A stretch of 64,000 nt of DNA from Chitinophagaceae bacterium (GTDB lineage: Bacteria; Bacteroidota; Bacteroidia; Chitinophagales; Chitinophagaceae): positions 248,001-312,000 of the forward strand of contig JAHBTJ010000001.1 of NCBI GenBank assembly GCA_019638595.1, written 5' to 3'. This document shows positions 21,938 to 43,156 of the stretch, piece by piece. A program made the translations under genes and the position numbers. A model generated the notes under the pieces. It did no database searches and was not told where the DNA came from. It saw nothing but the letters and a program-made list of their open reading frames with translations. Each line of letters opens with the position of its first letter. The stretch's first letter is position 1.

Positions 21938-24412
21938 ATGAAAGAAAAGTTATCATTCGTGGTCTTCTGTTTATGTTTACTTGCCTGTGACCAACAGAAA
22001 GATGTTTCTTTTTCATCGTATGAACAGGCAAAAAAACACACCCTGCGCTATGATAAGCCTGCGGTTGATTTTTTTGAAGGCGCTTTGCTGGGCAATGGTG
22101 GTATGGGTGTGGTTGTAACAACAAGACCGGACGGTATTATGCTGTACTTCGGCCACAACAATGTATGGGATATACGTATTGCTGAAAAGCACAGGGAGGA
22201 GATCGGCACCTTTGATTATGTATTTGACAAAGTGAGCAAAATACCCGATACGCTCAAACTGTTGACCGATGATCCCTGGTACAAAAAATACAGTACCATG
22301 GCCCAGGAAAATTATCGCCAGCCCTATCCAAGGCCGTTCCCCTGCGGTTCCGTCCTGTTGGGATTTGACAGGCGAGATGCAGAACTGTTGGGGCATTCCC
22401 TCGATATCTCTAACGGGTTGTGTGAAGTATATATGCTGGATAAGAAAAAAAACAGGATAAAGCTCCAGGTGTTTACAGATATGGAGAAAGACCGGCTATG
22501 GATGCAGTTGGTGGATGACCAGGGGAACAAGGTTCCCAATATTTTTAAAAGGCTGAAGGTGATGCCCGACCCTTCTACTCCCCCGGAATTTCCCGCTTAT
22601 ACCAGTGATGAAATATTGCAGGAAGGTACGCTGTCGTTCAGGCAAACGCTGCCCTCCCGCGAGCCTGGTGAATACGATAAGGAAAAAAGATATCCGAAAG
22701 ACAAGGCTTTCCGTTTAACGGCAAGCAGCAACCTGGATCTGAAAAAAACAGACAGGATAAACTGGGATGGCAATAATGAAAAAATGCAAACGCTGGAAGC
22801 CGCTTTTGAAGACGGGGGAAAAGAACTGGTTGTGAGCGTTCAACTGGAAGAAGGGATAGATTCTTTAGTATCCGGCCAGGTAAAGGTACAACGCCCTGGT
22901 TTTGATGCTTATCTTGCATCCAGGTCTGCTTCAGAAGAATCCTGGAAAAATTACTGGTCAAAATCCGGTGTTCAGTTGAGCGATCATTTCCTGGAAGAAA
23001 TATGGTACAGGAATTTGTATTTTTTTAATTGTGCAGCTAAAGACGGCGCCACTACTCCGGGGTTGTTTGCCAATTGGAGCTTTAACAAAATCGGTACTGC
23101 CTGGCATGGCGATTACCATATGAACTATAACACACAACAACCTTTCTGGATGACTTTTTCCAGTAATCACCTGGAAAAAAACCTCCCCTATGTTAATCTC
23201 ATCGAATTACTGATGCCTGTAAGCCGCACATGGGCGCAGGAGTATTATAAATTGCCCGGTGCTTATTTCCCGCATTCGGCATACCCCGTTGAAATGACAA
23301 TGAACCCCTATCCTGTGCCGCATTGGGGTTGGGAAATATGTGAAACACCCTGGTCTGTACAGGGGTTATGGTGGCATTACCTGTATTCTGCAGATACGGT
23401 TTATCTTAAAACCAGGGCCTATACACCTATAAAGGAAGCAGTAGAATTTCTTGTAGCGTATATGAAGCGCCCGGAAGCCAGGGGTGGCTCCAGGTGGAAC
23501 GATGATAAGTATCATATTTTCCCCACTATACCCCCGGAGCTGTATGCGCTGCGCCCGGGCTTTAAATACAATTATGACTGTAATGTAGACCTTACACTTA
23601 CAAAATTTGTATTCAATGCATTTATCAACATGGTGGATATACTGGGAACCCATGAACCTGACCAGGAACTGGTAGCGGATGTAAAAGATATTTTAGGCAA
23701 TTATCCCGATTACCCGACTGCCCGGTCAGAAAAATACGGGGAGGTATTGGTTTCTGTGCCCGGGGAGCACGACCAGGTAGTATATAATGTTCCTTCTCCT
23801 TTAATGAATGTTTTTCCGGGTGAAGACCACGGATTGCATTCCGGCGATTCTATCATGCAAATATTGAAAAATACTTATTATAACCAGCAAAACGAAGGCG
23901 GGAACGACCTGGTGTTTATCAACCTGCAGGCTGCAAGGCTTGGACTGCTGGATATAGAAAGCTTTAAAAGGCATGTGCGCTATTCACTATTGCCAAACGG
24001 AACCGCAACAGATAAAGTAATGCAGGTACACGGGCGGTATAGAGATCATACGAAATATGACTATATGGCCGCTATGGGTATCTGGTTTGAAAACTTTGCC
24101 CTGCCGGTAGTAATTAATGAATGCTTCATTCAAAGCTATAATGGTATAATCAGGCTTTTCCCTAATTGGGATATTACGAAGGATGCGGCATTTTTTAACC
24201 TGCGGGCTGTAGGAGCTTTTCTTGTAAGCGGTTCGGTTAAAAATGAGAGGATGCATATATCCATATTCAGTGAAAAGGGCGGTAAGCTGAAAGTGTATGC
24301 CCCCTGGGGGAAAAGCGGTACAATAAAGCAGGGAAACAAAAAAAGCAATATAACCAATGAGCTGATCGTAATTGATACCGTTGCAGGAGAAACTATAGAG
24401 CTGGAAAAGTAA
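21938..24412 (+). CDS. GH95-like (alpha/alpha)6 glycosidase-fold lipoprotein
   Basis: An 824-aa lipoprotein (lipobox LLAC, Cys17). After an N-terminal beta-sandwich region (GALLGNGGMGVVVTTRPDGIMLYFGHNNVWD), a (alpha/alpha)6 domain carries GTAWHGDYHMNYNTQQPFW, in which the N-Y-N pair fits the Asn-x-Asn water-activating pair of GH95 fucosidases. FPTIPPELYALRPG supplies a candidate general-acid Glu. The GH95 Asp motif (QIDGNFG) is replaced by ENFALPVVIN, so the catalytic base is unclear. Probably an alpha-L-fucoside- or galactoside-type hydrolase or a divergent relative; substrate not predictable. It is the first gene after the SusD terminator and heads the operon. Confidence 0.7.
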   Translation: MKEKLSFVVFCLCLLACDQQKDVSFSSYEQAKKHTLRYDKPAVDFFEGALLGNGGMGVVVTTRPDGIMLYFGHNNVWDIRIAEKHREEIGTFDYVFDKVSKIPDTLKLLTDDPWYKKYSTMAQENYRQPYPRPFPCGSVLLGFDRRDAELLGHSLDISNGLCEVYMLDKKKNRIKLQVFTDMEKDRLWMQLVDDQGNKVPNIFKRLKVMPDPSTPPEFPAYTSDEILQEGTLSFRQTLPSREPGEYDKEKRYPKDKAFRLTASSNLDLKKTDRINWDGNNEKMQTLEAAFEDGGKELVVSVQLEEGIDSLVSGQVKVQRPGFDAYLASRSASEESWKNYWSKSGVQLSDHFLEEIWYRNLYFFNCAAKDGATTPGLFANWSFNKIGTAWHGDYHMNYNTQQPFWMTFSSNHLEKNLPYVNLIELLMPVSRTWAQEYYKLPGAYFPHSAYPVEMTMNPYPVPHWGWEICETPWSVQGLWWHYLYSADTVYLKTRAYTPIKEAVEFLVAYMKRPEARGGSRWNDDKYHIFPTIPPELYALRPGFKYNYDCNVDLTLTKFVFNAFINMVDILGTHEPDQELVADVKDILGNYPDYPTARSEKYGEVLVSVPGEHDQVVYNVPSPLMNVFPGEDHGLHSGDSIMQILKNTYYNQQNEGGNDLVFINLQAARLGLLDIESFKRHVRYSLLPNGTATDKVMQVHGRYRDHTKYDYMAAMGIWFENFALPVVINECFIQSYNGIIRLFPNWDITKDAAFFNLRAVGAFLVSGSVKNERMHISIFSEKGGKLKVYAPWGKSGTIKQGNKKSNITNELIVIDTVAGETIELEK

Positions 24413-24473
24413 ATAAAGTAAGTAATATTGTTTCGGCCCTTAGCTTAAGGCGTGGAATTTGAAATTAACTATT

Positions 24474-25613
24474 ATGCAGTTGCCCTTGGCAGATATTATT
24501 GTGTTGGAGTTTTGCCAGTATTTGTCTGGCCCTTGCGCGGGGTTAAGGCTGGCTGATCTGGGCGCCCGCGTCATAAAGATTGAACATCCGCTTACGGGAG
24601 AAGGAGGCAGGAAGCTTGCCATTAAAAATATGTGGGTGGATGATGATAATTCACTTTTGTTTAATACCATCAACAGGAATAAAGAAAGCTTTGCAATAGA
24701 CATGGGCAACGCCGGCGATATGGTATGGCTTAAAAAGCTGATCGGTAAAGCACATGTGCTTGTTCATAATTTCCGGCCGGGTGCAATGGAAAGGAAGTTG
24801 TTAGGGTATGAAGATGTGGTGAAGTTAAATCCTTCGATCGTGTACGCACAAATATCAGGTTATGGAGAAGCAGGTCCCTTGCATAAAAAGCCCGGGCAGG
24901 ATCTTTTGGTACAAAGCCTGTCGGGGCTGACTTATACTACCGGAAGTGCTTCTGATATTCCTACAGCCTTAGGTTTAGGCATTGGTGATTACCTGTGTGG
25001 CAACCAGGCGGTTCAATTTATTATTGCCGCATTAATAAAATCAAAAAAAACAGGAAAAGGAACTTTGTTGCAGCTCAGCTTGCTGGAATCCCTCATAGAT
25101 TTTCAATTCGAATTTTTTACCACTTATTTTCAGAGCCATAAAATGCCGCAAAGAGCAGGCTTTAATAATGCACATGCGCTGCTGAGCGCGCCGTATGGCA
25201 TCTATAAAACATCCGATGGATATATTGCTATCGCCATGGTACCCATCCGGCAACTGAATAAAATCCTGCAGAGCAAGGCGCTGGAGCAATACGATGAGCA
25301 GGATTGTTTCCGGAAAAGGGATGAAATAAAAAAGCGGATCGCAGAAAAGATCGCTACCAATACCAGTCAGTACTGGTTGCAGAAAAGCAAAGAGCTGGAC
25401 CTTTGGGTGATGCCCGTATTAAACTGGAAGGAAATGAGCGCAACCGCAGGGTATAAGGTACTGGACATGGAACAAACCATTAAACTGCCGGGGAACAAAG
25501 CTTTCATCACAACAAGATGCCCGGTCCGCATAAATGGCAGGATTTTAAAATCTGGTAAAGCTGCACCGCAGGTGGGCGAAAATAATGCAGGGATTAAAGC
25601 ATCATTGAGCTGA
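24474..25613 (+). CDS. Class III CoA-transferase (CaiB/BaiF family), copy A
   Basis: The family moves CoA between carboxylic acids through an aspartyl-anhydride intermediate. The 379-aa protein starts at ATG 24474 (MQLPLADIIVLEFCQYLSGP). Family motifs include GPCAGLRLADLGARVIKIEHP, NRNKESFAIDM, HNFRPGAMERKLLGY and YAQISGYGEAGP. GLGIGDYLCG places an Asp at the catalytic Asp position (about residue 170). It is followed by FQFEFFTTYFQ and RCPVRINGRILKSGKAAPQVGENN. The signal-less protein should be cytoplasmic. It lies 61 bases after the GH95-like gene and 4 bases before its paralogue. The substrate acid is unknown. Confidence 0.93.
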   Translation: MQLPLADIIVLEFCQYLSGPCAGLRLADLGARVIKIEHPLTGEGGRKLAIKNMWVDDDNSLLFNTINRNKESFAIDMGNAGDMVWLKKLIGKAHVLVHNFRPGAMERKLLGYEDVVKLNPSIVYAQISGYGEAGPLHKKPGQDLLVQSLSGLTYTTGSASDIPTALGLGIGDYLCGNQAVQFIIAALIKSKKTGKGTLLQLSLLESLIDFQFEFFTTYFQSHKMPQRAGFNNAHALLSAPYGIYKTSDGYIAIAMVPIRQLNKILQSKALEQYDEQDCFRKRDEIKKRIAEKIATNTSQYWLQKSKELDLWVMPVLNWKEMSATAGYKVLDMEQTIKLPGNKAFITTRCPVRINGRILKSGKAAPQVGENNAGIKASLS

Positions 25614-25617
25614 TTTT

Positions 25618-26763
25618 ATGGATAAACTGTTAGACAACATACTGGTGGTAGATTTCAGTCAGTTTTTATCGGGGCCAAGCACGAGTTTACGTTTAGCAGA
25701 TATGGGGGCACGGGTGATAAAGGTTGAAAAGCCTGTAACGGGAGATATTTGCAGAACACTGTATGTTTCAGACGTTATGCTTGAAGGAGGAGAGTCTACT
25801 ATCTTTCACGCGATCAACCGCAATAAAGAAAGTTTTGTAGCCGATTTAAAAGAAACCGCATCGCTGGAATCTGTAAAGAAGCTGCTGAATCATGCAGATG
25901 TTATTGTACACAATTTCAGACCCGGGGTTATGGAGCGGCTGGGACTGGACTATGAAAAGGTAAAAGTAATGAATCCCGGTATCGTGTACGGAGAGATCAG
26001 CGGGTATGGCCAGGAGGGTGAATGGAAGGATCTTCCCGGGCAGGATCTCCTGGCACAGGCTGTTTCGGGTATTACTTATTTAACAGGTAGCGGGGAAGAG
26101 GCTCCTGTTCCTATGGGAGTGGCAGTAGCGGATATTATTGCCGGTACGCATCTTACCCAGGGAATATTAGCAGCGCTGTTTCAAAGAATGCGCTCGGGAG
26201 AAGGCAGCCTGATCCAGGTAAGCATGCTGGAAAGCTTACTTGATTTTCAATTCGAAGTATTGACCTGCTTTCTGAATGATGGGAATGATTTACCGGTTCG
26301 CAGCAAGGTTAACGGCGCCCACGCATATATAGCAGCGCCTTATGGAATTTACCAGACTGCCGATGGCTATCTTGCCATAGCAATGGCGCCTGTTACAAAG
26401 CTGGCTGATTTGTTACAGGTGAATGCATTATGCGGTTATACAAATCCCCAGGACTGGTTTAACAAAAGAGATGAAATAAAAGCCATTCTTGCAAAAGCCC
26501 TCTCAACAAAAAGTACGGCACACTGGCTTGCCATACTGGAGCCGGAAGATATATGGTGTGCGGATGTGTATGATTACGACCGGCTGATAGTAAGCGAAGC
26601 CTATAAATTATTAAAGATGGAGCAGTGGGTAACCTCCAACGGCTTAAAGGTAAAAACAACGCGCTGCCCGGTAAGAGTAAACGGAAAATCGTTAACAAGT
26701 CCTAAAGGAGCCCCTTCCCTGGGTGAAAACAGCAGGGAAATTGAAGATGAATTTGATCTCTGA
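25618..26763 (+). CDS. Class III CoA-transferase (CaiB/BaiF family), copy B
   Basis: A 381-aa paralogue of the gene just upstream, sharing the same order of motifs: FSQFLSGPSTSLRLADMGARVIKVEKP, NRNKESFVADL, HNFRPGVMERLGLDYEKVK, GEISGYGQEGEWKDLPGQDLLAQ, then MGVAVADIIAGTHL with the catalytic Asp retained. Both copies keep Asp, so either two activities or an A/B heteromer is possible. The gene lies 4 bases after copy A, indicating co-translation. It is soluble with no leader. The family includes formyl-CoA:oxalate, carnitine, citramalate and benzylsuccinate CoA-transferases, so the acid cannot be named. Confidence 0.93.
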   Translation: MDKLLDNILVVDFSQFLSGPSTSLRLADMGARVIKVEKPVTGDICRTLYVSDVMLEGGESTIFHAINRNKESFVADLKETASLESVKKLLNHADVIVHNFRPGVMERLGLDYEKVKVMNPGIVYGEISGYGQEGEWKDLPGQDLLAQAVSGITYLTGSGEEAPVPMGVAVADIIAGTHLTQGILAALFQRMRSGEGSLIQVSMLESLLDFQFEVLTCFLNDGNDLPVRSKVNGAHAYIAAPYGIYQTADGYLAIAMAPVTKLADLLQVNALCGYTNPQDWFNKRDEIKAILAKALSTKSTAHWLAILEPEDIWCADVYDYDRLIVSEAYKLLKMEQWVTSNGLKVKTTRCPVRVNGKSLTSPKGAPSLGENSREIEDEFDL

Positions 26764-26789
26764 TAACTAAATATAAATAGTGTACAAAT

Positions 26790-29024
26790 ATGAGAAAAAG
26801 ACGTTGGATATTGCTGCTGCTGGCAGGTTGCGGAATTGGCCATGTTTATGCCCAGCAGGTTTCAGACTTCGATCTTACATTTACCGGTAGGGGCACAGAC
26901 TCCTGGAGCTCTCTTCCGCTTGGGAACGGGGAGCTTTCTGCGCAGGCCTGGACAAATAATAAAGGTGAGATACAATTTTACCTTGCTACCACCGATAGCC
27001 GGGATGGAATGGATAATCCTATCAAAATAGGAAAAATTACCATAAGCTTTGAGCCTGGTATCCTGGTAAACGGTACAGGTTACAGTGAGCGGCTCTTGCT
27101 TGACCAGGGCATCCTGAAAATAAAAAACAACCTGGCTGATATTGAGCTGAGAGTGGATGCCAGCCACCCGGAGATCATTGTATCAGGCTCATCAAAAGTA
27201 CCGGTAAAAATATCTGTTACCAATAATATATGGCGCAACGAAACCAGGCCCTGGAATAAGAAAGAATACGTGGAAGAATATGGTGATAACCAGATACCGT
27301 TTGCTCCTTTTATGGAAGCCGACAAAACGATGATTGCGGGAGAGGGCATCCTGTGGTTTCACCGGAATGAAAATGGGGTATTCTGGAATGAATTGATGAA
27401 AGTGAATGACATGCTGGATGAAGGAATGATCAACCCGCTCAAAAACCGCACATCAGGCGCCCTGGTGCAGGGAGCCGGTTTAAAACCGTTGAATGATTCC
27501 ATGCTTGTATCACGTTCTCCGCAACAAAACATTTTTATCAAAACAACTGTATTGGTAAAGCAAACAGATGCTGCAAATGACTATATAAATGAGCTGGAAA
27601 AACTAACAACGGGTTTGGACAAAAAAAAGGAGCGTGCTGCCCTGGCGGCGCACAAGCGATGGTGGAATGATTACTGGAGCCGGAGCTATGTATATTTCAA
27701 TGCTGATGATAAGGCGGTAAACGATACGCTGCAACTGTTAAACAGGGGATATATATTACAACGCTATGTAAATGCTATCGGCGCCAGGGGTAAGCTTCCT
27801 GTAAAGTTTAATGGGTCTACGTTGGTATTGGATACGTACAGGCAGGCGATCGGGCGGGTATCCGGAAAGTCGGCGGATGTTCGCTTATGGGGAGGCGCGT
27901 ACTGGTGGCAAAATACCCGGTTGATTTATTATCCTATGCTGGCATCGGGCGACTTTGACCAGTTGCAGACATTTATCCGTTTTTATGCAGACGAACTCCT
28001 GCCTGTTATGAAAAAAATGACCAAAAAATTCTACGGGATCAATGGTGCACGCTTTATGGAAACAACTCATTTCTGGGGCGCCTGGCGGGGGGGAGATATT
28101 AGCTGGAACAGGACCAACCTGCAGCCGGGTATGTCTAATAATCCTTACATAAAGGACCTGATCATAACGGGGCTGGAAATGGGATATTTCCTGCTTGATT
28201 ACTACAGCTACACAGGCGATGAAAAAATGCTGCATGAAAAAGCATTGCCATTTATAAAAGAAATACTACTGTTTTATGACCAGTTTTATCCCCGGGATGC
28301 CTACGGTAAATTACTGATTGCCCCGGCACAGTCGCTGGAAACCTATATTGAGGGCGTTAATCCCACTCCGGATATAGCCGGGTTAAAGGTTGTTATACCT
28401 CGTGTAATGCAATTGGCACAAGATACAGCCTTGCTGAGCCTGTGCAGGAAAATGGAAGCGGAGATACCGGATATACCAACCAAAGAAAAAAATGGTAAAA
28501 AACTGATATCGCCGGTACTTGCCTATAAAAAAATCATCAATGTAGAGTATCCTGAATTGTATCCTGTATTTCCTTTCCGGATATTTGGTGTAAACAAAGC
28601 AGACCTGGAAGTTGCTGTTAATACTTTTAAAGAAAAATCAAGAACCTACTTTGGTTGGCAACAAACCGGTATACAGGCGGCATTGCTTGGATTAACGGAC
28701 AGTGCGGCGAAAGTGATGAAAATAAATGGTCTGGCATTTGACAAACGTTTCCGTTTTCCGGGCTTTTGGGGGCCTAACTATGATTATACTCCCGATCAGT
28801 GCCATGCAGGCAACTATATAAATACCATTCAAACCATGCTGCTGCAGGCGGAAGGTAATAAGGTCTTCCTTCTGCCGGCATGGCCTAAAGAATGGAATGT
28901 AAAATTTAAGCTGCATGCACCGGGAAACAGCCAGGTAGAAGCGGAATGGAAAAACGGGAAAATGATCTCCGTAAAAAAGCATCCGGCCGGGAACGATGCT
29001 GAGGTTATCATTGGATTCAGGTAG
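26790..29024 (+). CDS. DUF5703 / GH95-like (alpha/alpha)6-barrel exported protein
   Basis: A 744-aa protein with signal peptide (MRKRRWILLLLAGCGIGHVYAQ). It has an N-terminal beta domain with SWSSLPLGNGELSAQAW (the LPxGNG motif shared with GH95) and a (alpha/alpha)6 domain with RLWGGAYWWQNTRLIYYPML and LLIAPAQSLETYIEG carrying a candidate Glu. A C-terminal beta region has VFLLPAWPKEWNVKFKL. The GH95 Asn-x-Asn pair and QIDGNFG motif are not conserved (here WWQNTR and QCHAGNYI). It is probably a divergent glycoside hydrolase of the DUF5703 group, in the periplasm. It follows the CoA-transferases by 26 bases; its insertion between cytoplasmic enzymes suggests a shared substrate. Confidence 0.75.
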   Translation: MRKRRWILLLLAGCGIGHVYAQQVSDFDLTFTGRGTDSWSSLPLGNGELSAQAWTNNKGEIQFYLATTDSRDGMDNPIKIGKITISFEPGILVNGTGYSERLLLDQGILKIKNNLADIELRVDASHPEIIVSGSSKVPVKISVTNNIWRNETRPWNKKEYVEEYGDNQIPFAPFMEADKTMIAGEGILWFHRNENGVFWNELMKVNDMLDEGMINPLKNRTSGALVQGAGLKPLNDSMLVSRSPQQNIFIKTTVLVKQTDAANDYINELEKLTTGLDKKKERAALAAHKRWWNDYWSRSYVYFNADDKAVNDTLQLLNRGYILQRYVNAIGARGKLPVKFNGSTLVLDTYRQAIGRVSGKSADVRLWGGAYWWQNTRLIYYPMLASGDFDQLQTFIRFYADELLPVMKKMTKKFYGINGARFMETTHFWGAWRGGDISWNRTNLQPGMSNNPYIKDLIITGLEMGYFLLDYYSYTGDEKMLHEKALPFIKEILLFYDQFYPRDAYGKLLIAPAQSLETYIEGVNPTPDIAGLKVVIPRVMQLAQDTALLSLCRKMEAEIPDIPTKEKNGKKLISPVLAYKKIINVEYPELYPVFPFRIFGVNKADLEVAVNTFKEKSRTYFGWQQTGIQAALLGLTDSAAKVMKINGLAFDKRFRFPGFWGPNYDYTPDQCHAGNYINTIQTMLLQAEGNKVFLLPAWPKEWNVKFKLHAPGNSQVEAEWKNGKMISVKKHPAGNDAEVIIGFR

Positions 29025-29140: not shown

Positions 29141-29665
29141 ATGAACCCCAATAACGATGCCTCAAAACACAAAGACATACCCATCTGGAATGCTGAAGAC
29201 TGGTATTATGAAGATATTGAAATAGGTAAACGGATCCGGTCTATACGCAGAACGATCAGCGAAGGAGAAAGCATGCAGTTCAATAACCTGGTGCTGGATA
29301 TGCATCCTTACGTGGCAGACGAGATATTCGCCAGGGAAAAGGGAATTTTCGGAAAGAGGCTGGTGGCTGGCGCTTTTGTGTTCAGCGCAGGATTGGGACT
29401 GGTGGCTACCAACTGTGTTAACGCATTTAGCTATGGCTACGATAAGCTGAGATTCATAAAGCCGGTATTTATTAACGACACTATCTATACCATAAAGACA
29501 GATCTGGATAAACAACCTAAATATAAAGATATGGGGCTGTACAGGGCCAGCTATGAAATTTTTAAGAACGAGGGGGAACTGGTACTATATTGCGAACATT
29601 TGCAAACAGTGAAATACCGTGATCCTGCACAATTTCAAACCCGCCTGCCGGACGGGCAGGCGTGA
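29141..29665 (+). CDS. MaoC-like hot-dog-fold protein lacking the catalytic His
   Basis: A 174-aa MaoC/(R)-hydratase-type hot-dog protein ([59 protein letters not shown]). In the family the catalytic block is GD-x-N-P-x-H-x-D. Here it reads [12 protein letters not shown], so the Asp is present but the His position is occupied by Val. It is therefore likely a structural or inactive subunit. The neighbour downstream is an intact MaoC, which makes an active/inactive pair. The N-terminal extension of ~20 residues is polar. Upstream is a 116-base gap with AAATTTGAAAATT repeats. Confidence 0.85.
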
Positions 29666-29687: not shown

Positions 29688-30131
29688 ATGTTTACCAAAA
29701 TATATTTTGAAGATTATGCCGAAGGCGATACTCGTGAAACGATCGGGCGCACCATAACCGAAACCGATATTGTAATGCACGCCGGGCAAACCGGCGACTT
29801 TTTTCCGCATCATATGGATGCGGAATGGTGCAAAACGCAGCCCTTTAAAGAACGTATTGCCCATGGTACGCTCATCTTCAGCGTGGCGGTTGGTATGACG
29901 GCCTCCCTGATCAACGAGGTGGCTTTCAGTTACGGGTACGACCGCCTGCGATTTATAAAACCTGTTTTTATAGGAGATACCATCAAAGTAAAAATTACCA
30001 TCAAAGAAAAAAAGCCGTATAAAAAACCGGGTATGGGCCTGGTTACCGAGCTGGTGGAAGTATTCAATCAAAAGCAGGAATGTGTAATGGTTTGTGAACA
30101 TATTTTGCTGGCACAACTAAAGATCACGTAA
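29688..30131 (+). CDS. MaoC-like (R)-specific enoyl-CoA hydratase
   Basis: I chose ATG 29688 ([20 protein letters not shown]), which aligns with the family start; upstream codons contain repeat sequence. The protein is 147 aa with the hot-dog fold and the full catalytic block [12 protein letters not shown] (Asp and His both present), [16 protein letters not shown] and [21 protein letters not shown]. It hydrates or dehydrates acyl-CoA thioesters. The [11 protein letters not shown] region is nearly the same as in the upstream MaoC, so the two are paralogues. It is followed after one base by the binding-protein homologue. Confidence 0.93.
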
Positions 30132-30132
30132 A

Positions 30133-34377: not shown

Positions 34378-35139
34378 ATGCTGAAAGCTAAAATAGTTTT
34401 TTTAACAGGCGGCGCTGATGGTATAGGATGGGAATGTGCAAAAGCATATAATAAAAGCGGCGCTGTGGTTTGTATAGCGGACAAAAATCCTGTTACAGCT
34501 CAAAAGCAATCCGAATTAAAGGGGGAGCATGTATGTATGCTTTGTGATGTTACCAATGAGCAAAAAATAAAAGAAGCCATCGAAACAGTCATATATACAT
34601 TCGGTCGCCTGGACGCCATTCATAACAATGCGGGTATCGCACATCCTTCAAAGCCTTTGCACGATACCCGCGATGATGAGTGGAACCTGTTGCTGAACAT
34701 AAATTTAAAAAGCATATTGTACACTACCCGGCATGGAATTGAACATTTAAAAAAGTCGAAGGGTACCATACTAAATACCAGTTCAATGGTGGGGAGCATT
34801 GGCCAGGAGAACCATGCCGCTTATGTTGCCACCAAAGGAGCCGTGAATGCGCTTACCAAAGCAATGGCGCTCGACTATGCACCGGATGGTATCCGGGTGA
34901 ATGCGATCAGTCCCGCTGCTATAAAAACCGGCACATTAAAAGCATGGAGCGATGAGCAACCGGGTAAAGAGTTGATTGAAAAATACCTGGACAACCTGCA
35001 GCCGCTGGGCAAATTACCGGAAGGAGATGTAATAGCGGATGCGGCAGTATTCTTACTGAGTGATGCGGCCCGTTTTATTACAGGCTGCATTTTACCGGTA
35101 AGCGGCGGCGCTGAACTGGGATACAGGACTATACTATAA
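34378..35139 (+). CDS. Short-chain dehydrogenase/reductase (2-keto-3-deoxy-fuconate-type)
   Basis: A 253-aa SDR starting at ATG 34378 (MLKAKIVFLTGGADGIG). It has the Rossmann TGGADGIG, the NNAGIAHPS motif, a catalytic Ser in NTSSMVGSIG, the Tyr-x-x-x-Lys YVATKGAVNALT, and RVNAISPAAIKTGTLKAW. It also has FLLSDAARFITGCILPVSGGAELG. Length is typical. In the oxidative L-fucose or L-rhamnose pathways an SDR oxidises 2-keto-3-deoxy-L-fuconate at C4 or the free sugar. Here it lies 21 bases before the dehydratase gene, so one of those two steps fits by context. Confidence 0.88.
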   Translation: MLKAKIVFLTGGADGIGWECAKAYNKSGAVVCIADKNPVTAQKQSELKGEHVCMLCDVTNEQKIKEAIETVIYTFGRLDAIHNNAGIAHPSKPLHDTRDDEWNLLLNINLKSILYTTRHGIEHLKKSKGTILNTSSMVGSIGQENHAAYVATKGAVNALTKAMALDYAPDGIRVNAISPAAIKTGTLKAWSDEQPGKELIEKYLDNLQPLGKLPEGDVIADAAVFLLSDAARFITGCILPVSGGAELGYRTIL

Positions 35140-35160: not shown

Positions 35161-36387
35161 GTGATCACTACTATTAATATCAGTGATAGAAGATTTAAGC
35201 TTACTGCCGGTGCAGGCAGCGATGCTATACATAAAGATCCTCAATATTCATACGCTGTAACACAGTTGGCGGACGGAAACGGTACTATTGCCAACGGGCT
35301 GGCTTTTACGGTTGGTGCAGGAAATGAACTGGTATGCCAGGCCGCTGAATTCTATGCGGAAAAGCTGATCGGATATGATATTGAGGAATTAATGTCGGGT
35401 TTCGGCAATTGGTTCAGGAATGTATCTAATGAACAACAGTTCAGGTGGCTGGGTCCTCACAAAGGCGTTGTACACCTGGGGCTGGCGAGTGTAACCAATG
35501 CCTGCTTCGATCTTTGGGCGAAGAAGAAAGGAGTGCCATTATGGAAATTATTAACAGACCTTACACCTGAGCAGATCGCGGATACGCTGGATCTGTCTTA
35601 CCTGGAAGACGTGCTTACAAGAGAAGAGGTGATTGATATGCTGAAGCAACAGCAGGAAGGAAGAGCGGAAAGGGAAAAGATCATTGAAAAGGGATACCCC
35701 GGGTACGATACTTCCGTAGGATGGTTTAATTATGGTGATGAAAAAATACGCGAAAATTGCAGGAAGGCCATTGATAACGGGTTTACAGCGCTAAAGCTGA
35801 AAGTGGGTTCTGCGGATGCACAACGCGACATCCGGCGTGCGGCTATTGTACGGGAGGTGGCAGGCGATGATATTAAAGTAATGGTAGATGCCAATCAGCA
35901 ATGGACATTACCACAGGCTATTGCCGTTTGCACCGAGTTAAAAAAAATGAACCCTTACTGGATTGAAGAACCTACCCATCCCGATGATGTGTTAGGTCAT
36001 CAAACACTGGCTAAAGCCATTGCGCCGTTAAAGCTTGCTGTGGGTGAACATATTCCCAACCGCATTTTATTCAAGAACTATTTACTGGCAGGCTGCGCTT
36101 CTTTTATACAGGTAGACGCGGTACGCGTAGGAGGAGTAAGCGAGTTTATAACCGTGAGCCTGCTGGCCAAAAAATTTGGTATACCCGTAGTGCCGCATGT
36201 AGGAGATATGGGGCAGTTGCACCAGCATCTTGTTTTATTCAATCACATAGCCATTGGTCACGAGGTGTTGTTCCTTGAACATATCCCGCACCTGAAAACG
36301 CATTTTGTACATCCGGTTACAATACAGAACGGAGTATATATAACACCCCGGGAAGCCGGCAGCAGTTGTGATTTGGTGGAAGAATAA
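35161..36387 (+). CDS. Enolase-superfamily sugar-acid dehydratase, L-fuconate dehydratase (FucD/ENOSF1) type
   Basis: A 408-aa enzyme with a GTG start at 35161. It contains the mandelate-racemase/fuconate-dehydratase arrangement: RWLGPHKGVVHLGLASVTNACFDLWAKKKGVPLW (cap, in pieces GPHKGVVHLGLASV), FTALKLKVGS (catalytic Lys, about 220), VMVDANQQW (metal Asp), YWIEEPTHPDD (metal Glu), VGEH (metal Glu) and VVPHVGDMGQLHQHL (catalytic His). These match the FucD group, which dehydrates L-fuconate to 2-keto-3-deoxy-L-fuconate. The cap is shorter than in some members (about 440 aa), so related acids such as L-rhamnonate or D-arabinonate are not excluded. It is followed 20 bases later by the symporter. 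Confidence 0.88.
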   Translation: MITTINISDRRFKLTAGAGSDAIHKDPQYSYAVTQLADGNGTIANGLAFTVGAGNELVCQAAEFYAEKLIGYDIEELMSGFGNWFRNVSNEQQFRWLGPHKGVVHLGLASVTNACFDLWAKKKGVPLWKLLTDLTPEQIADTLDLSYLEDVLTREEVIDMLKQQQEGRAEREKIIEKGYPGYDTSVGWFNYGDEKIRENCRKAIDNGFTALKLKVGSADAQRDIRRAAIVREVAGDDIKVMVDANQQWTLPQAIAVCTELKKMNPYWIEEPTHPDDVLGHQTLAKAIAPLKLAVGEHIPNRILFKNYLLAGCASFIQVDAVRVGGVSEFITVSLLAKKFGIPVVPHVGDMGQLHQHLVLFNHIAIGHEVLFLEHIPHLKTHFVHPVTIQNGVYITPREAGSSCDLVEE

Positions 36388-36407: not shown

Positions 36408-38057
36408 ATGATCTCAGGTATTGATATTGCCATAAGTATTGTGTATGTTCTTTTTATTGTCAGCATCGGGCTTTGGACCGGCAGGAGGAAGAACAGGGGG
36501 AAATCCGCCACCGGCAAAGAATATTTCTTAGCCGGCAAAACCCTGCGCTGGCCTATGATCGGGCTGGCACTGTTTGCCACCAATATTTCCTGTCTTCATT
36601 TGGTTAGCCTGGCCCAGAGCGGATTCGACTCAGGGTTGCTGAACGGGAATTTCGAGTGGATGGCGGCATTTACGCTTATCCTGTTGGCCTTGTTTTTTGT
36701 GCCTTTTTACATACGATCCGGTATCTCAACACTCCCTGATTTTTTGGAAAGAAGATATAATAAGGCCTGTCGCGACTGGCTTGCCTTTGTTTCTATAGTA
36801 TCAGCAATGATCATCCATATCGCCTTTTCTTTTTTGGCAGGCGGTATTGTGCTGGAAACACTGTTCGGGATCAATATGTATATAAGTGTCATCATTATCG
36901 CGCTGCTTACAGGCTTGTATACCATTGTGGGAGGACTGAAAGCGGTAGTGGTAACAGAAGCCATCCAGAGTGTGGTTTTAATAGGCGGGGCAATCATCAT
37001 TACATACTTTTCTTGGGATAAGGCAGGCGGGTTCGGCAACATGACCAAAGTGCTTTCGCAGCATAACGAGCTTGATAAATTAAGCATGATCCGCCCATTG
37101 GGTGACAGCAGTGGTATGAGCTGGGCGGCGGTATTCCTGGGCTATCCTGTTTTGGGCATCTGGTACTGGTGTGCCGATCAAACCATCGTTCAAAGAACAT
37201 TAGGGGCTAAAGACGAAAACAATGCCAGGGTAGGCGCTTTATTCTGCGGGTTTATAAAAATTCTACCCGTTTTTATTTTTGTATTGCCCGGTTTATTCGC
37301 TTACACGTTGTATCATTCAAATGCGATGGACTTAAGCAGCCTCCAATATACAAGTGTCAATGGTGAAACTACACTCAACACAAAAGGGATCTACACGTTA
37401 ATGATCACTCAACTGGTGCCCAAAGGTTTGATTGGCATTCTTGTAGCAGCGCTGCTTTCAGGCTTAATGAGCCAGATAGCCGGCGCGCTAAATTCTATCG
37501 CCACATTGAGCAGCTATGATCTTTATAGAAGGTTTAAACCTGAAACAACAGAAAAAAAATTAGTACAAGTTGGAAAATGGTCTGCAGGTATTGCTTTGGC
37601 TTTATCCATTGGACTGTTGCCTTTGCTCAATCAATATCAAAGTTTGTTTGAAGGCATCAATGATGTGATAGCGCATATTGCTCCTCCGATCACCTGTGTT
37701 TTCTTATTAGGCATCTTTTGGAAAAAAGCATCGGCCAGGTCGGCGCAATATACATTGTGGCTCGGCTCATTGTTAGGTGCAGCGGTTTATATCATCAATA
37801 AACTGAATCCTGAAACAGTGATTGGTAAGATACCTTTTATGATGATGGCCTGCTATCTTTTTTGTGCCTGCGTATTGATGCAGGTGATCTTTTCTTATTT
37901 ATATCCTGTACGGCATACACAACAAAGCGAAAAATTATATTGGAAATCTGTTTGGGAACCTTTGAGAGCCAGGGGATGGAACGGTATCGGTAACTATAAA
38001 ACTTTATCGGTGTTGTTGCTTTTGATCATGGGAGCGCTGTACTGGACGTTTCGATAA
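36408..38057 (+). CDS. SSS family sodium:solute (SGLT-like) symporter
   Basis: A 549-aa polytopic membrane protein with about 14 helices. The start contains AISIVYVLFIVSIGLWTGRRKNRGKSATGKEYFLAGKTLRWPMIGLALFATNIS (in pieces GKEYFLAGKTLRW and FATNISCLHLV), which is the SSS signature. Later blocks are LPDFLERRYNKACRD, GLYTIVGGLKAVVVTEAIQ and WYWCADQTIVQRTLGAKDENNARVGALFCGF (in pieces). It also has LAALLSGLMSQIAGALNS-like residues. Substrate is likely a sugar by the SGLT-like WYWCADQ-x-x-VQR motif. It gives the operon a second uptake system beside RhaT. Confidence 0.93.
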   Translation: MISGIDIAISIVYVLFIVSIGLWTGRRKNRGKSATGKEYFLAGKTLRWPMIGLALFATNISCLHLVSLAQSGFDSGLLNGNFEWMAAFTLILLALFFVPFYIRSGISTLPDFLERRYNKACRDWLAFVSIVSAMIIHIAFSFLAGGIVLETLFGINMYISVIIIALLTGLYTIVGGLKAVVVTEAIQSVVLIGGAIIITYFSWDKAGGFGNMTKVLSQHNELDKLSMIRPLGDSSGMSWAAVFLGYPVLGIWYWCADQTIVQRTLGAKDENNARVGALFCGFIKILPVFIFVLPGLFAYTLYHSNAMDLSSLQYTSVNGETTLNTKGIYTLMITQLVPKGLIGILVAALLSGLMSQIAGALNSIATLSSYDLYRRFKPETTEKKLVQVGKWSAGIALALSIGLLPLLNQYQSLFEGINDVIAHIAPPITCVFLLGIFWKKASARSAQYTLWLGSLLGAAVYIINKLNPETVIGKIPFMMMACYLFCACVLMQVIFSYLYPVRHTQQSEKLYWKSVWEPLRARGWNGIGNYKTLSVLLLLIMGALYWTFR

Positions 38058-38101
38058 AGTGTTGCATCAAGACACATGGCCATTGATAAAAAATATTGAT
38101 T

Positions 38102-40561
38102 ATGTACTTATTAACTCGGCTCAAAGCCAAAACAATCATAACAAAAGCAGCAGTTGGCACTATAGTTTGTATTGCATGGATAATCTCCGCGAACGCGCAG
38201 CCGGCTTATCAATCCAGGCTATGGTACGATGAACCTGCCGGCGCTTCGGTAAAGGATAATCCCAATGGTTGGGTAGACGATGCTGAATGGCTAAAGGCTT
38301 TGCCGGTAGGAAACGGTTTTATTGGCGCTATGGTGTTTGGCGATGTAAATAAAGAACGGCTGCAGCTCAACGAAAAAACGCTTTGGAGCGGCAGTCCTGA
38401 TGACAATAACAATCCCGAAGCTGCAAAATACATTCCGCAGATAAGAGAATTGCTGTATGCAGGTAAATACAAAGAAGCGACTGCGCTTACAAATAAAACA
38501 CAGGTATGCAAAGGCGCTGGTTCGGGCCACGGCAATGGGGCTAATGTGCCTTTTGGCTGCTTTCAAACGCTTGGTGACCTGTGGTTTGATTTTGGCAAAA
38601 AAACACCCTACAGTAATTACTACAGGGAACTGGATTTAATAAAAGGGATTGCGCTTACAAAATACCTGCAGGATGGAGTGAACTACACAAGAGAAGTTTT
38701 TGCGAGTTATCCCGACAATGCGCTGGTCATTCGTTTTACCGCCGATAAGCCTGCGGCTTTGTCATTTTCTTTATCGCTTGACCGTCCTGAAAAATTTGCT
38801 ACCACAACAGATGGAAAGAGATTGATCATGTCGGGTGTGTTGGCCAATGGTAAAGGCGGTGATGGAATGCGGTACAAAGTGTATGCTATCCCTATGCTCA
38901 CCGGCGGCAGGTTATCAGCTCATGGCAATCAATTAAAAATAACAGGGGCCAACGCCGTTACCATTCTTGTTACTGCCGCTACCAATCACCGTCTTCACTA
39001 TCCCGATTATACCGATGAAAATTTTGAGACAAGATTAAACGCTATTACAAAAAAGACGGTTTCAAAATCCTTTGCGCTGCTTCGTCAAAAGCATGTGCAG
39101 GATTTTTCTTCTTTTATGCTGCGTAACACCCTGCAATTGGGAGATGCTGATATCACTCAAATCCCTACTAATAAATTATTAGAGAAAAATCACAGCACTA
39201 AAAATGAGCAGGCGTTATATGCTTTGTATTATCAATATGGCCGGTATTTGCTGTTGTCTTCTTCAAGAAAAGGAAGCCTGCCTGCCAACCTGCAGGGTAT
39301 CTGGGCTAACAAAATACAAACGCCATGGAATGGGGATTATCATACCGATATCAATGTGCAGATGAATTATTGGCCTGCGGAAGTAACCAATCTTTCCGAT
39401 TGTCATTTGCAGTTGGCAGACCTGGTTCATTCACTTGTAAAACCCGGAACTAAAACAGCTAAAGTGCAATACAACATGAATGGCTGGTGCCTGCATCCCA
39501 TCACTAATGTATGGGGGTATACTTCCCCGGGTGAACGTGCGGGTTGGGGCATGCATGTGGGCGCCACCGCGTGGTTTTGCCAGCACTTGTGGGAACATTA
39601 TGCGTTCACCAGGGACAAAGCTTTTTTACAGCAGTCCTGGCCGGTGTTAAAAGAAGCCTGCCGTTTTTATTTTGACTGGCTGGTAAAAGATCCCGTATCG
39701 GGCAAATGGGTATCAGGCCCTGCGGTATCGCCGGAAAACTCGTTTATAGCTCCTGACGGTTCTACTGCACAAATAAGTATGGGACCTTCACATGATCAGC
39801 AGGTAGTTTATGATTTGTTTAGCAATACATTGAGAGCAGCTAAAATATTGGGATCAGGGGATAAAGCTTTTTTAGACAGCCTGCAGCAGGTTTCCTCTCA
39901 ACTGGCAAGACCATCCATTGGCTCCGATGGCCGACTGATGGAATGGATGCAGGAATTTAAAGAAACAGAACCCCGTCATCGCCATGTGTCACATCTGTTT
40001 GCTTTATTTCCCGGCAATGAAATATCGTTTTATAAAACGCCTGCATTGGCGGCAGCAGCTAAAAAATCATTAGAGGCAAGAGGCGATGGCGGTAATGGCT
40101 GGTCGCTGGCCTGGAAGATCGCTTTTTGGGCCAGACTGCACAATGGTGACAGTTCGCTCAAGCTGCTGAACAACCTGTTGCGCCCTACTACTATGATAGA
40201 AAAGGGACATGACAACCTGGGCGGCAGTTATTATAACTTATTTGATGCCTGTCCTCCATTCCAGATTGATGGCAATTTTGGAGCTACTGCGGGTATTGCT
40301 GAAATGCTGTTGCAAAGTCACGAAGATTTTATTGAGTTGTTACCAGCCCTGCCTGCCGCATGGAAAGAAGGTGAAGTAAAGGGCTTGTGTTCAAGAGGAG
40401 GTTTTATAATAGATATGAAATGGGAAAACAGCAGGATAGTGGCGGCGGCATTGACGTCGAAAAAAGGCGGCCCATGTGAAGTGAAATATGGCGAAAAACA
40501 AGCAAGACTGCAAACGAAAGCCGGTCAGCACTATGATTTGATGAAGCTGCTGGAATTATGA
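38102..40561 (+). CDS. GH95 family glycoside hydrolase (alpha-L-fucosidase/galactosidase type), copy A
   Basis: An 819-aa enzyme with an N-terminal signal peptide (ending IISANAQ), starting at ATG 38102. The N-terminal beta domain carries LPVGNGFIGAMVFGDVNKERLQLNEKTLWSG, described by the pieces LPVGNGFIGAMVFG and QLNEKTLWSG. The (alpha/alpha)6 domain has QTPWNGDYHTDINVQMNYW (about 407-425), GPAVSPENSF (candidate general-acid Glu, about 545) and PPFQIDGNFGATAGIAEML (Asp). In characterised AfcA the water-activating pair is Asn-x-Asn; here the first is Asp (DIN). Secreted to the periplasm or surface. It likely releases terminal L-sugars that feed the sugar-acid genes upstream. Confidence 0.93.
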   Translation: MYLLTRLKAKTIITKAAVGTIVCIAWIISANAQPAYQSRLWYDEPAGASVKDNPNGWVDDAEWLKALPVGNGFIGAMVFGDVNKERLQLNEKTLWSGSPDDNNNPEAAKYIPQIRELLYAGKYKEATALTNKTQVCKGAGSGHGNGANVPFGCFQTLGDLWFDFGKKTPYSNYYRELDLIKGIALTKYLQDGVNYTREVFASYPDNALVIRFTADKPAALSFSLSLDRPEKFATTTDGKRLIMSGVLANGKGGDGMRYKVYAIPMLTGGRLSAHGNQLKITGANAVTILVTAATNHRLHYPDYTDENFETRLNAITKKTVSKSFALLRQKHVQDFSSFMLRNTLQLGDADITQIPTNKLLEKNHSTKNEQALYALYYQYGRYLLLSSSRKGSLPANLQGIWANKIQTPWNGDYHTDINVQMNYWPAEVTNLSDCHLQLADLVHSLVKPGTKTAKVQYNMNGWCLHPITNVWGYTSPGERAGWGMHVGATAWFCQHLWEHYAFTRDKAFLQQSWPVLKEACRFYFDWLVKDPVSGKWVSGPAVSPENSFIAPDGSTAQISMGPSHDQQVVYDLFSNTLRAAKILGSGDKAFLDSLQQVSSQLARPSIGSDGRLMEWMQEFKETEPRHRHVSHLFALFPGNEISFYKTPALAAAAKKSLEARGDGGNGWSLAWKIAFWARLHNGDSSLKLLNNLLRPTTMIEKGHDNLGGSYYNLFDACPPFQIDGNFGATAGIAEMLLQSHEDFIELLPALPAAWKEGEVKGLCSRGGFIIDMKWENSRIVAAALTSKKGGPCEVKYGEKQARLQTKAGQHYDLMKLLEL

Positions 40562-40644: not shown

Positions 40645-40744
40645 CCGATACAGGATGGAAGATTAAAAACTAATCGTATATCATTTATATTTGAATGCCT
40701 GTTGCTGCCTGTAAAACCGGATTGAACAAAATAAATTATGAATC

Positions 40745-43156
40745 ATGATCAAAAAAGTATTTTTCTTCCTGTCGTTACTTATACCGGTATTTGTCTCTGC
40801 ACAAAGCAACAGCCTTAAGCTCTGGTATAAGCAACCTGCCAATGCGACCGTTAAAGATGTGAGCGAAGGCTGGAAGAACGATCCCGAATGGCTGCGCGCC
40901 TTGCCGGTGGGCAATGGGTTTACGGGCGCCATGGTATTTGGCGACGTAAATAAGGAACGGTTACAGTTAAATGATAAAACCTTGTGGAGCGGCAGCGTGG
41001 CTGATAATGATAACCCTGATGCTTTTGCATCGCTCAATGAAATCAGGGAGCTGCTGTTTGCCGGGAAATATAAGGAGGCCACAGCGCTTACCTATAAAAC
41101 GCAGGTGTGCAAAGGCGCGGGATCGGGGCATGGCAACGGCAGCACTGTTCCTTTTGGCTGTTTTCAAACCCTGGGCGACCTGTGGATTGATTTCAATAAA
41201 ACGGCAGGATACAAAAACTATTACCGCGACCTGGACCTGGTGACCGGTATCGCGAGTGTACGCTACGAGCAGGAGGGCATTATTTATAAAAGAGAGATCT
41301 TTGCCAGCTATCCCGATAAAGTACTGGTCGTGCGCCTGTCCGCTTCCAAACCTGGCAGCATTTCGTTTACCATGGGTATGGATCGCCCCGAACGGTTTAC
41401 AACCGCTGCGCTTACAGACAGGTTAAGCATGAGTGGTGTAATGAACAATGGCGCCGGTGGCGATGGTATGCAGTATACGGTAGAGGCAGTACCTGTACTA
41501 AAGGGAGGAAAGCTCTCTGTGAAAGGCAATACGTTGCAGGTGAATAAGGCGAATGAGGTAACGCTGATCATCAGCTCTGCTACCAACTACCGCTTACATT
41601 ATCCCGATTACGTTAATCCCGGTTATAAAAGTGAGCTGGCAAATACGCTGGCTGCCGCTACCGGCAAGCCATATGCGCAATTGCGGAAAGATCATGTAGC
41701 TGATTTTTCTTCCTTCATGAGCAGGGTAACGCTGCGTTTGGGCGATCACGCGCAAGCCCAAACACCTACCGATGAATTGCTGGCGCTGAACAAACGATCG
41801 CAGAACGAACAATATTTGTATGCCCTGTATTTTCAGTATGGGCGCTATTTATTGCTCTCTTCTTCAAGAAAAGGAAGTTTACCGGCCAACCTACAGGGCA
41901 TGTGGGCTAATAAAATACAAACGCCCTGGAACTGCGACTATCATACTGATGTGAATGTGCAGATGAACTATTGGCCGGTAGAAGTGGGCAATTTATCGGA
42001 AAGCCATTTGCAATTGACAGACCTGATAGAATCGCTGAAAGCGCCCGGCGAAAAAACAGCGGCTACGCATTATCATGCAGGCGGGTGGGTAATGCATCCT
42101 ATCACCAATGTATGGGGATTTACGGCGCCGGGAGAGCATCCCAGTTGGGGGTTGCATGTGGGCGCCAGCGCGTGGCTGAGCCAGCATTTGTGGGAGCATT
42201 ACGCATTTACGTTAGATAAAGATTACCTGCGCCGCGTATTTCCTGTGCTGCAGGGAGCTGCTGCTTTTTACCTCGACTGGCTGGTAAAAGATCCTGCAAC
42301 GGGCAGGCTCATTTCGGGGCCCGCGGCGTCACCGGAAAATACTTTTGAAGCGCCGGATGGCAGCACCGGCAGCATCAGTATGGGGCCGGCGCATGATCAC
42401 CAGGTGATCTATAACCTGTTTACCAATACCCTGCTGGCGGCTCAAGCATTAGGTATACAAAATGAAAGCATAACCAAAATAGCGGAAGCTAAATCGCAAT
42501 TGCCTGAACCCTCTATAGGCGGTGATGGCAGGCTGATGGAATGGGCGCATGAATTCCCTGAAAAAGAACCACAGCACAGGCACGTGTCGCACCTGTTCGC
42601 GCTATACCCCGGCAGCCAGGTATCGTATTATCAAACGCCTGCATTGGCGGCCGCGGCGCGCAAATCGCTTGAGGTACGGGGTGATGGTGGAACGGGATGG
42701 TCGCTGGCAATGAAAATAAGCTTTTGGGCCAGGCTGCACGATGGGGATCATGCATTGAAGCTGTTAAACAGGCTGCTGAATCCTGTTCAGTCGAGCGATG
42801 TGGAAATGACCAATAGCGGCGGCACTTACGACAACCTGTTTTGCGCGCATCCGCCCTTCCAGATAGATGGGAATTTTGGCGGAACTGCCGGCATAGCGGA
42901 AATGTTATTGCAGAGTCATGAAGCGTTTATTGAATTATTACCCGCATTACCTGCCCTATGGAAAGAAGGAGAAGTAAAAGGGCTTTGTGCAAGGGGAGGC
43001 TTTGAGCTTGACATAAAATGGAAAGAAGGGAAATTACACAGCGCCTCGCTGCATTCCAAAAAAGGCGGTACCTGTAAGCTGCGGTACGGGCAAAAGGAAA
43101 TGACCATTGCAACAGAGTCCGGTAAAACCTATATGCTGGGCGAATTGCTGAAATAA
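40745..43156 (+). CDS. GH95 family glycoside hydrolase, tandem copy B
   Basis: An 803-aa signal-peptide protein (IPVFVSAQS cleavage region). It is a close paralogue of copy A over its whole length, with the same block order: LPVGNGFTGAMVFGDVNKE, QLNDKTLWSG, GSGHGNGSTVPFGCFQTLGDLW, TPWNCDYHTDVNVQMNYW, SGPAASPENTFEAPDGS and FQIDGNFGGTAGIAEML. The same Asn-to-Asp change (DVN) is present, so it predates the duplication or is shared by the subfamily. Signal peptide and catalytic Glu are conserved. It ends the long operon and is followed by a terminator. Confidence 0.93.
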   Translation: MIKKVFFFLSLLIPVFVSAQSNSLKLWYKQPANATVKDVSEGWKNDPEWLRALPVGNGFTGAMVFGDVNKERLQLNDKTLWSGSVADNDNPDAFASLNEIRELLFAGKYKEATALTYKTQVCKGAGSGHGNGSTVPFGCFQTLGDLWIDFNKTAGYKNYYRDLDLVTGIASVRYEQEGIIYKREIFASYPDKVLVVRLSASKPGSISFTMGMDRPERFTTAALTDRLSMSGVMNNGAGGDGMQYTVEAVPVLKGGKLSVKGNTLQVNKANEVTLIISSATNYRLHYPDYVNPGYKSELANTLAAATGKPYAQLRKDHVADFSSFMSRVTLRLGDHAQAQTPTDELLALNKRSQNEQYLYALYFQYGRYLLLSSSRKGSLPANLQGMWANKIQTPWNCDYHTDVNVQMNYWPVEVGNLSESHLQLTDLIESLKAPGEKTAATHYHAGGWVMHPITNVWGFTAPGEHPSWGLHVGASAWLSQHLWEHYAFTLDKDYLRRVFPVLQGAAAFYLDWLVKDPATGRLISGPAASPENTFEAPDGSTGSISMGPAHDHQVIYNLFTNTLLAAQALGIQNESITKIAEAKSQLPEPSIGGDGRLMEWAHEFPEKEPQHRHVSHLFALYPGSQVSYYQTPALAAAARKSLEVRGDGGTGWSLAMKISFWARLHDGDHALKLLNRLLNPVQSSDVEMTNSGGTYDNLFCAHPPFQIDGNFGGTAGIAEMLLQSHEAFIELLPALPALWKEGEVKGLCARGGFELDIKWKEGKLHSASLHSKKGGTCKLRYGQKEMTIATESGKTYMLGELLK

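Follow-up and report, generated by a model that had tools for sequence, protein, structure and literature searches.

A candidate CoA-dependent route for 6-deoxyhexose acids joined to L-fucose genes in a Chitinophagaceae operon

The operon described here, from a Chitinophagaceae bacterium, is a junction of two units. The first, module A, is a candidate oxidative route for 6-deoxyhexoses of the L-rhamnose/L-fucose type, in which the sugar acid would be dehydrated as its CoA thioester; we put the probability of this reading at slightly under one half. Module A contains two class III CoA-transferases (CoT1 and CoT2), a MaoC pair, a solute-binding-protein homologue (SBP) lacking a signal peptide, a lactonase, RhaT, and a Gfo/Idh dehydrogenase. 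The second unit, module B, consists of an SDR dehydrogenase, an L-fuconate dehydratase, an SSS symporter, and two GH95 glycosidases, and looks like ordinary L-fucose catabolism.

The window, i.e., the whole 64,000-nucleotide stretch analyzed (G000:C1:248001-312000), belongs to a 7.06 Mb genome of 52 contigs with a completeness of 99.99%. Positions 21938-43156 carry 15 genes, all on the + strand and flanked by terminator hairpins, confirming the co-directional block between two terminators that the first-pass annotation had described. Based on sequence and folding, the + strand hairpin between susD and the operon (21834..21868) is strong and that after the last gene (43177..43199, also +) is weaker; pattern scans picked up neither of them. 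As susC, susD, and an AraC-like gene (named by eye) are located immediately upstream, the operon resembles a glycan-utilisation locus.

The first gene encodes a GH95-like glycosidase (21938..24412; PF22124, 104 bits), which is also a neighbour in L036-L038 and other loci. It is followed by CoT1 (24459..25613; PF02515, 286 bits) and CoT2 (25618..26763; PF02515, 310 bits), both over the cut-off, a DUF5703/GH95-like glycosidase (26790..29024; PF18961, 167 bits), and the hot-dog proteins MaoC1 (29141..29665; PF01575, 49 bits) and MaoC2 (29688..30131, given from the start of the conserved part, the listed ORF beginning at 29619; PF01575, 88.5 bits, over the cut-off; closest PDB entry 4ffu). Next come the SBP (30133..31290; PF01547, 54 bits), the fuconolactonase-like sugar lactonase AmdH (31311..32165; NF052480, 144 bits against a cut-off of 400; PDB 4dlf), and a RhaT-type sugar/proton symporter (32197..33249; PF06379, 192 bits). 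Module A ends with a Gfo/Idh/MocA dehydrogenase (33249..34325, listed ORF from 33141) that closes the cassette in L035-L038 and others as well. Module B starts with the SDR (34378..35139, listed ORF from 34294) and continues with the L-fuconate dehydratase of the enolase superfamily (35161..36387; E 4e-107 to 2hne), the SSS-family sugar symporter (36408..38057; PF00474, 243 bits), and GH95 glycosidases a (38096..40561; PF22124, 564 bits) and b (40745..43156; PF22124, 570 bits).

The two modules recur separately. The order GH95-like, CoT1, CoT2, DUF5703, MaoC1, MaoC2, SBP, AmdH, RhaT, Gfo is kept in the close named relatives L036-L038, where the genes after Gfo differ from module B of the window; in L035, a mutarotase stands at the front in place of the GH95-like gene. 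The SDR, L-fuconate dehydratase, and SSS genes were found together apart from the cassette in L236, L237, and L127, the latter in the genome of L059. Among 195 genomes taken as Chitinophagaceae from named relatives, the SBP was present in 34, a dehydratase homologue (E 1e-90) in 21, and both in eight; at an identity of at least 68%, L-fuconate dehydratase was present in 20, the own genome included. SBP and dehydratase share a contig in the own genome only, and we therefore conclude that the operon joins two units. The expectation that relatives would keep the CoA genes beside the dehydratase was not borne out, as none of the seven other family genomes with both had them on one contig.

The cassette of module A occurs in several phyla. 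A scan of GTDB contigs yielded 71 loci, mostly of Bacteroidota, the others being from Paenibacillus, Cohnella, Enterococcus, Ammoniphilus, and MAGs labelled Roseiflexaceae, Singulisphaera, and Methylacidimicrobium. Plasmid records of proteobacteria (Sinorhizobium, Pararhizobium, Rhizobium, Shinella, Roseibium, Ponticoccus, Variovorax, Roseateles, Microvirga, Jannaschia, and Pseudosulfitobacter) and of Streptomyces were also positive, some with a second cassette type or with the SBP alone. Binning errors may underlie the MAG labels of L089 and L097; a second SBP homologue in L097, u2, is 93% identical to the u2 of Roseiflexaceae L096. When the SBP was searched at E 1e-30 in 299 genomes of the Ammoniphilus phylum, it was found in the Ammoniphilus genome only, thus the set is patchy there.

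Altogether 95 loci were tabulated (71 GTDB, 5 family, 18 plasmid stretches, and the window), a count that contains near-duplicates (L179/L186 and several rhizobia) as well as loci truncated at a contig end. The SBP is present in 93 of them, with a CoT on its strand in 88, at most 300 bp away in 77. A hydratase accompanies 85 of these 88 SBP+CoT loci (77 MaoC, six crotonase, two both), and three have neither. RhaA was also tried as a discriminator and proved uninformative (PF06134 in 6/26 cassette genomes and 1/195 family genomes). Among the literature matches listed, none described the combination of CoA-transferase, hydratase, and SBP, the matches concerning other subjects or canonical enzymes. 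S. meliloti locus tags used as a query returned one unrelated paper; the portion of PMC3454389 available covers other fucose/rhamnose transporters of S. meliloti.

The conserved Asp of class III CoA-transferases is catalytic; it could be aligned for CoT1 (10uh, 9br6) and was seen by eye in CoT2. The hallmark of MaoC-type enoyl-CoA hydratases is an Asp/His motif, which is intact in MaoC2 of the window (GDFFPHH). The MaoC2 motif with both residues was found in 63 of 71 loci, the pattern being unmatched in the other eight. MaoC1 (LDMHPYVAD) keeps the active-site Asp and has a Val at the His position. In the second cassette type, an SBP of ~40% identity or less and a CoT are joined by a crotonase-type hydratase, so the hydratase fold varies between loci while SBP and CoT are constant. 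MaoC and crotonase folds are unrelated, and both act on acyl-CoA. Their alternation beside the same two partners therefore suggests that the cassette chemistry is the addition of water to, or its removal from, an acyl-CoA. The second-type loci of Streptomyces, Pseudosulfitobacter, and Variovorax also encode, close to SDR and aldose 1-epimerase genes, a long protein with an FAH-family annotation. The Streptomyces protein reached 25.9 bits with PF01557 (cut-off 23.9), and no NCBIfam model matched any of the three. The second-type loci with SDR, CoT, SBP, crotonase, and FAH-family genes had no annotated dehydratase in the 19-21 kb shown.

From the genes, their company, conservation, motifs, and fold, we infer the following reactions for the CoA set and a role for the SBP. 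The glycosidases would release the sugar and RhaT would take it in, after which Gfo/Idh would oxidize C1 to give the lactone and AmdH would convert this to the aldonate, as families and gene company indicate. The cytosolic SBP would capture the aldonate (rhamnonate or fuconate) for the CoT pair, which would load CoA onto it. At MaoC2, which in the window probably pairs with the His-less MaoC1, the C3 hydroxyl would leave as water to yield 2-keto-3-deoxyaldonyl-CoA, and handing the CoA on to the next aldonate would free the 2-keto-3-deoxy acid. The free acid would proceed to the 4-dehydrogenase and FAH hydrolase or, in some other bacteria, to a pyruvate aldolase. As it would thus enter the normal route, the set would stand in for the aldonate dehydratase and not for FAH. 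Since module B brings a conventional L-fuconate dehydratase, the putative task of the CoA set in the window is probably to serve the partner sugar acid, L-rhamnonate, or to work in parallel.

If the set replaces an aldonate dehydratase, loci with such a gap are of interest. Six kinds of dehydratase (L-fuconate dehydratase, two further enolase-superfamily kinds, UxaA, UxuA, and IlvD) were sought in the loci, each represented by one or a few tblastn queries (E 1e-10, >55% of query length); distant members can escape this screen. UxaA and UxuA were sought within loci, while the genome-wide screens covered the enolase superfamily and IlvD. The locus screen was negative for 74 of the 88 SBP+CoT loci, while the remaining 14, window included, hold an enolase-superfamily, UxaA, or UxuA dehydratase, which in seven is L-fuconate dehydratase. 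In L234 of family genome G080, a one-strand row of SDR, FAH, FucP, mutarotase-like, fuconolactonase, and L-fucose dehydrogenase (407 bits, cut-off 300) genes continues directly into MaoC2, SBP, CoT1, CoT2, AmdH, RhaT, and Gfo. No dehydratase was found in its 20 kb by tblastn at E 1e-5 with queries of the six kinds, and G080 is not among the family genomes carrying L-fuconate dehydratase. The dehydratase is the one step of the L-fucose route that this locus lacks, and the CoA set lies directly behind the route genes. G080 does contain a talarate/galactarate-dehydratase-like gene ~66 kb off L234, plus epimerase-like ones.

Similar observations were made in further genomes. G106 (one contig, 99% complete) carries FAH along with the cassette. 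Its matches to the enolase superfamily amount to an epimerase-like protein and a trace (E 2.5e-7), and its single IlvD lies between ilvE- and ilvB-like genes (named by eye). In Enterococcus L098, lactaldehyde reductase, mutarotase-like, AmdH, Gfo, RhaT-like, and DapA-type aldolase genes adjoin SBP-CoT-CoT-MaoC2; genome-wide, the enolase superfamily is represented by a single weak match (E 4e-6) and IlvD by one gene. The genomes of Marinoscillum (L040) and L092 have two enolase-superfamily matches each, of which the best, the one inspected, is MenC-like; both genomes have a single IlvD. In these last three genomes, IlvD is next to an acetolactate-synthase-like gene (by eye). A second IlvD-family gene in G126 speaks against the gap, as does the talarate/galactarate-dehydratase-like gene of G080. 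Of the 27 family genomes that have the cassette but no close L-fuconate dehydratase, most contain other enolase-superfamily matches, 2 to 10 each, so the dehydratase gap is clean only in some.

The set also coexists with L-fuconate dehydratase in six cases (Roseibium, Pararhizobium, Shinella, S. meliloti, Roseateles, and L089), four of which have FAH in the same stretch; here the CoA set must have an additional job, perhaps with an L-rhamnose-type acid or a substituted sugar. The fucose operon of S. meliloti contains MaoC2 as well as L-fuconate dehydratase, and CoT and SBP are ~18 kb away. This coexistence and the split of MaoC2 hold our confidence in the dehydration reading near one half. That Roseibium, Pararhizobium, S. 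meliloti, and L089 have L-fuconate dehydratase and FAH beside the set would be accounted for if the CoA set stripped an ether or ester group off a substituted 6-deoxy sugar acid and so fed the ordinary fucose pathway, for example by β-elimination of methanol from a 3-O-methyl aldonyl-CoA. We regard this as a minor possibility, because the 20 Pfam-scanned neighbour proteins included no family that we know for methyl-group removal, and because a side branch would not explain the few genomes that have the set and in which no sugar-acid dehydratase of two enzyme families was detected.

The further proposal that the CoA set acts on an acyl-type substituent of the glycan found no evidence. Fatty-acid or acyl-substituent metabolism was considered as a candidate and rejected, since the same 20 neighbours included no such enzyme except one abhydrolase/esterase-like protein and one pectinesterase (Paenibacillus). 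Isolated cases do occur: an acyl-CoA ligase and a crotonase are present in L094, thiolase and AMP-binding genes lie on the opposite strand in Roseibium L177, and thiolase- and acyl-CoA-dehydrogenase-like ORFs (by eye) lie near the SBP of L159.

The substrate is suggested by the neighbours. RhaT, mutarotase homologues, GH78-/GH106-type rhamnosidases, GH95, GH28, and lactaldehyde reductase lie near various cassette copies, favouring L-rhamnose or L-fucose derived from pectin-like glycans as the substrate. Module A could instead serve another sugar, such as pectin-derived aceric acid or an apiose-type acid, with hydration as the CoA chemistry: a RuBisCO-like protein, a DUF1537-type kinase, and an Asp/Glu racemase recur in six Paenibacillus loci and Anditalea (L080), and GH28 and pectinesterase are neighbours in L044 and L085. 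This is unlikely, however, as RhaT, the L-rhamnose mutarotase homologues, fuconolactonase-like enzymes, lactaldehyde reductase, and the L-fucose genes indicate 6-deoxyhexoses. A literature search on D-apionate found nothing.

The structure model and fold comparison agree with a solute-binding-protein fold for the SBP, and ABC-type binding proteins or MBP fusions account for most of the closest solved structures among the matches listed. VIA-align served as a second look at the Foldseek matches, and absences in it carry no claim. The window SBP, which starts with MLEKIELKGITW, has no signal peptide. In 71 of the 89 homologues measured, the first conserved motif is preceded by <25 in-frame residues, and an upstream hydrophobic stretch was seen in five of the 89. 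The polar or charged residues R16, D60, D65, D117, Q295, Q305, and R338 are invariant in 93/93 sequences of both types, as might be expected if the SBP were itself a lactonase, epimerase, or dehydratase with a periplasmic-binding fold and the CoA-transferase and hydratase acted later. Such an enzyme would also fit u2, which takes the place of the lactonase AmdH in other loci and never occurs with it (17 loci). It would likewise fit the SBPs without CoT in L159, adjoining a rhamnonate-dehydratase-like gene, and in L184, adjoining two UxuA-like genes, which show that the SBP is not strictly tied to CoA chemistry. The structural matches, which neither demonstrate nor exclude catalysis, and the lactonases and dehydratases that adjoin the SBP in many loci make an enzymatic SBP improbable.

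The end of the fucose pathway was found elsewhere in the genome. The first-pass annotation had correctly stated that the operon lacks an FAH-type hydrolase, and none is among its 15 genes; the own genome has four FAH-family matches. Contig C50 carries a row of FAH (best model NF053535, 2,4-didehydro-3-deoxy-L-rhamnonate hydrolase type, 379.7 bits, below the strict cut-off of 500), fuconolactonase-like (NF052480, 255.6 bits, below the cut-off of 400), L-fucose dehydrogenase (NF052481, 408.8 bits, cut-off 300), and FucP (338 bits, cut-off 280) genes. Because a different contig supplies FAH within an L-fucose operon, the final steps of the pathway do not have to be taken over by the CoA genes. 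In the family, FAH is present in 30 of the 32 genomes with the main-type cassette and 81 of the 163 others (Fisher p ~1e-6, with genome size and kinship as confounders), and L-fuconate dehydratase in 5/32 and 15/163 (p 0.33). That the CoA set takes the place of FAH or an aldolase at the end of the L-fucose route, as the missing FAH among the 15 genes had suggested, is therefore very improbable and was rejected, given that this genome has FAH beside L-fucose genes, that FAH is frequent in cassette genomes, and that CoA set and FAH share loci (L089, L175, L177, L178, L182, and L234). What stands of the earlier interpretation is the tie of the CoA genes to an oxidative 6-deoxy-sugar pathway, with L-fuconate dehydratase in the same locus in 7 of the 93 SBP loci (the window, L089, and the proteobacterial plasmid stretches L175-L178 and L188).

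Published route 3 runs FucA-FucB-FucC-FucF-FucG, according to the portion of PMC11199699 available. Four of these steps are encoded in the own genome: FucA, FucB, and FucG on C50 and FucC in the window. The window SDR may be FucF, the L-KDF 4-dehydrogenase; its nearest solved structures are of human HSD17B14, a protein that the accessible part of PMC11293516 reports as an L-fucose dehydrogenase.

More broadly, and more tentatively, we propose that the cassette represents a further, CoA-dependent mode of aldonate dehydration beside the enolase-superfamily, IlvD/EDD, and UxaA/UxuA enzymes, built from a CoT, an exchangeable MaoC or crotonase, and an SBP recruited to the cytosol, and used across phyla in rhamnose/fucose and probably other sugar-acid operons. 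If true, sugar catabolism would gain a CoA-activated dehydration branch that pathway annotation overlooks, since the components are labelled ‘CoA transferase’, ‘MaoC’, and ‘extracellular solute-binding protein’. It would also account for rhamnose/fucose oxidation in genomes without a known aldonate dehydratase and give a widespread cytosolic solute-binding protein family a function.

Known systems resemble the proposed route in parts. CaiB and CaiD dehydrate carnitine by CoA cycling. By analogy, a class III CoA-transferase and an enoyl-CoA-hydratase-type enzyme might here dehydrate a hydroxy acid with the CoA recycled, although the substrate would be an aldonate, the main-type hydratase is MaoC-type, and the solute-binding protein is extra. 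To our knowledge, no sugar genes belong to the mesaconate system of Haloarcula, and the window CoA-transferases score 168.7 and 174.8 bits with the mesaconate CoA-transferase model, far below its cut-off of 700. The part of PMC5592240 drawn on describes, likewise, a CoA-transferase (succinyl-CoA:mesaconate) with a hydratase (mesaconyl-CoA). Unlike the sugar-binding SBPs of ABC transporters (6dtq, 1eu8, SmoF), the cassette SBP lacks a signal peptide, and no ABC permease adjoins it in the Bacteroidota and Paenibacillus loci read. With the non-phosphorylative L-fucose/L-rhamnose route 3 (FucA, FucB, FucC, FucF, FucG; LRA5/LRA6), as far as set out in the sections of PMC11199699 and PMC6336799 available, this genome shares the dehydrogenase, lactonase, dehydratase, and FAH, whereas in most cassette loci FucC goes undetected and a CoA-transferase, a hydratase, and a cytosolic SBP are found in its place.

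MaoC1 (window 29141-29665, + strand), a hot-dog protein keeping the Asp of the active-site motif, is 70-91% identical between phyla despite loss of the catalytic His (window and loci L089, L094 and L177). It is likely a structural partner of MaoC2 and was likely dispersed by transfer. The position held by the lactonase gene AmdH in other cassette copies is occupied by a second homologue of the solute-binding protein SBP in L083:12769-14073, L096:16931-18163, L161:13445-14680 and L173:17679-18806, with no signal peptide in the copies read, possibly a non-homologous displacement.

Following the dehydrogenase gene Gfo, a protein of 880-950 aa (cluster u0; L055:18184-20832) is conserved in 26 loci. 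Its only match, to GH67-N, was below the cut-off; it could represent an undescribed glycosidase family.

The cassette is adjoined by genes for a RuBisCO-like protein, a DUF1537-type kinase and an Asp/Glu racemase in both Paenibacillus (L085:2253-5670) and one Bacteroidota genome (L080:16682-20006). In the window, four genes (7434-14817, - strand) resemble, by eye, genes for planctomycete-type cytochrome c/DUF1501 proteins and an NHL-repeat protein, unusual company for a Bacteroidota glycan locus.

Rows of CoA-transferase, SBP, crotonase and long FAH-family genes (L180:7802-12087; L181:8814-13030; L183:7784-12126) lie near an SDR and an aldose 1-epimerase, with no aldonate dehydratase annotated there; they may constitute a sister pathway for another sugar. 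In an Enterococcus genome (L098:82-9714) the set is accompanied by a lactaldehyde reductase and a DapA-type aldolase, a variant resembling route 1.
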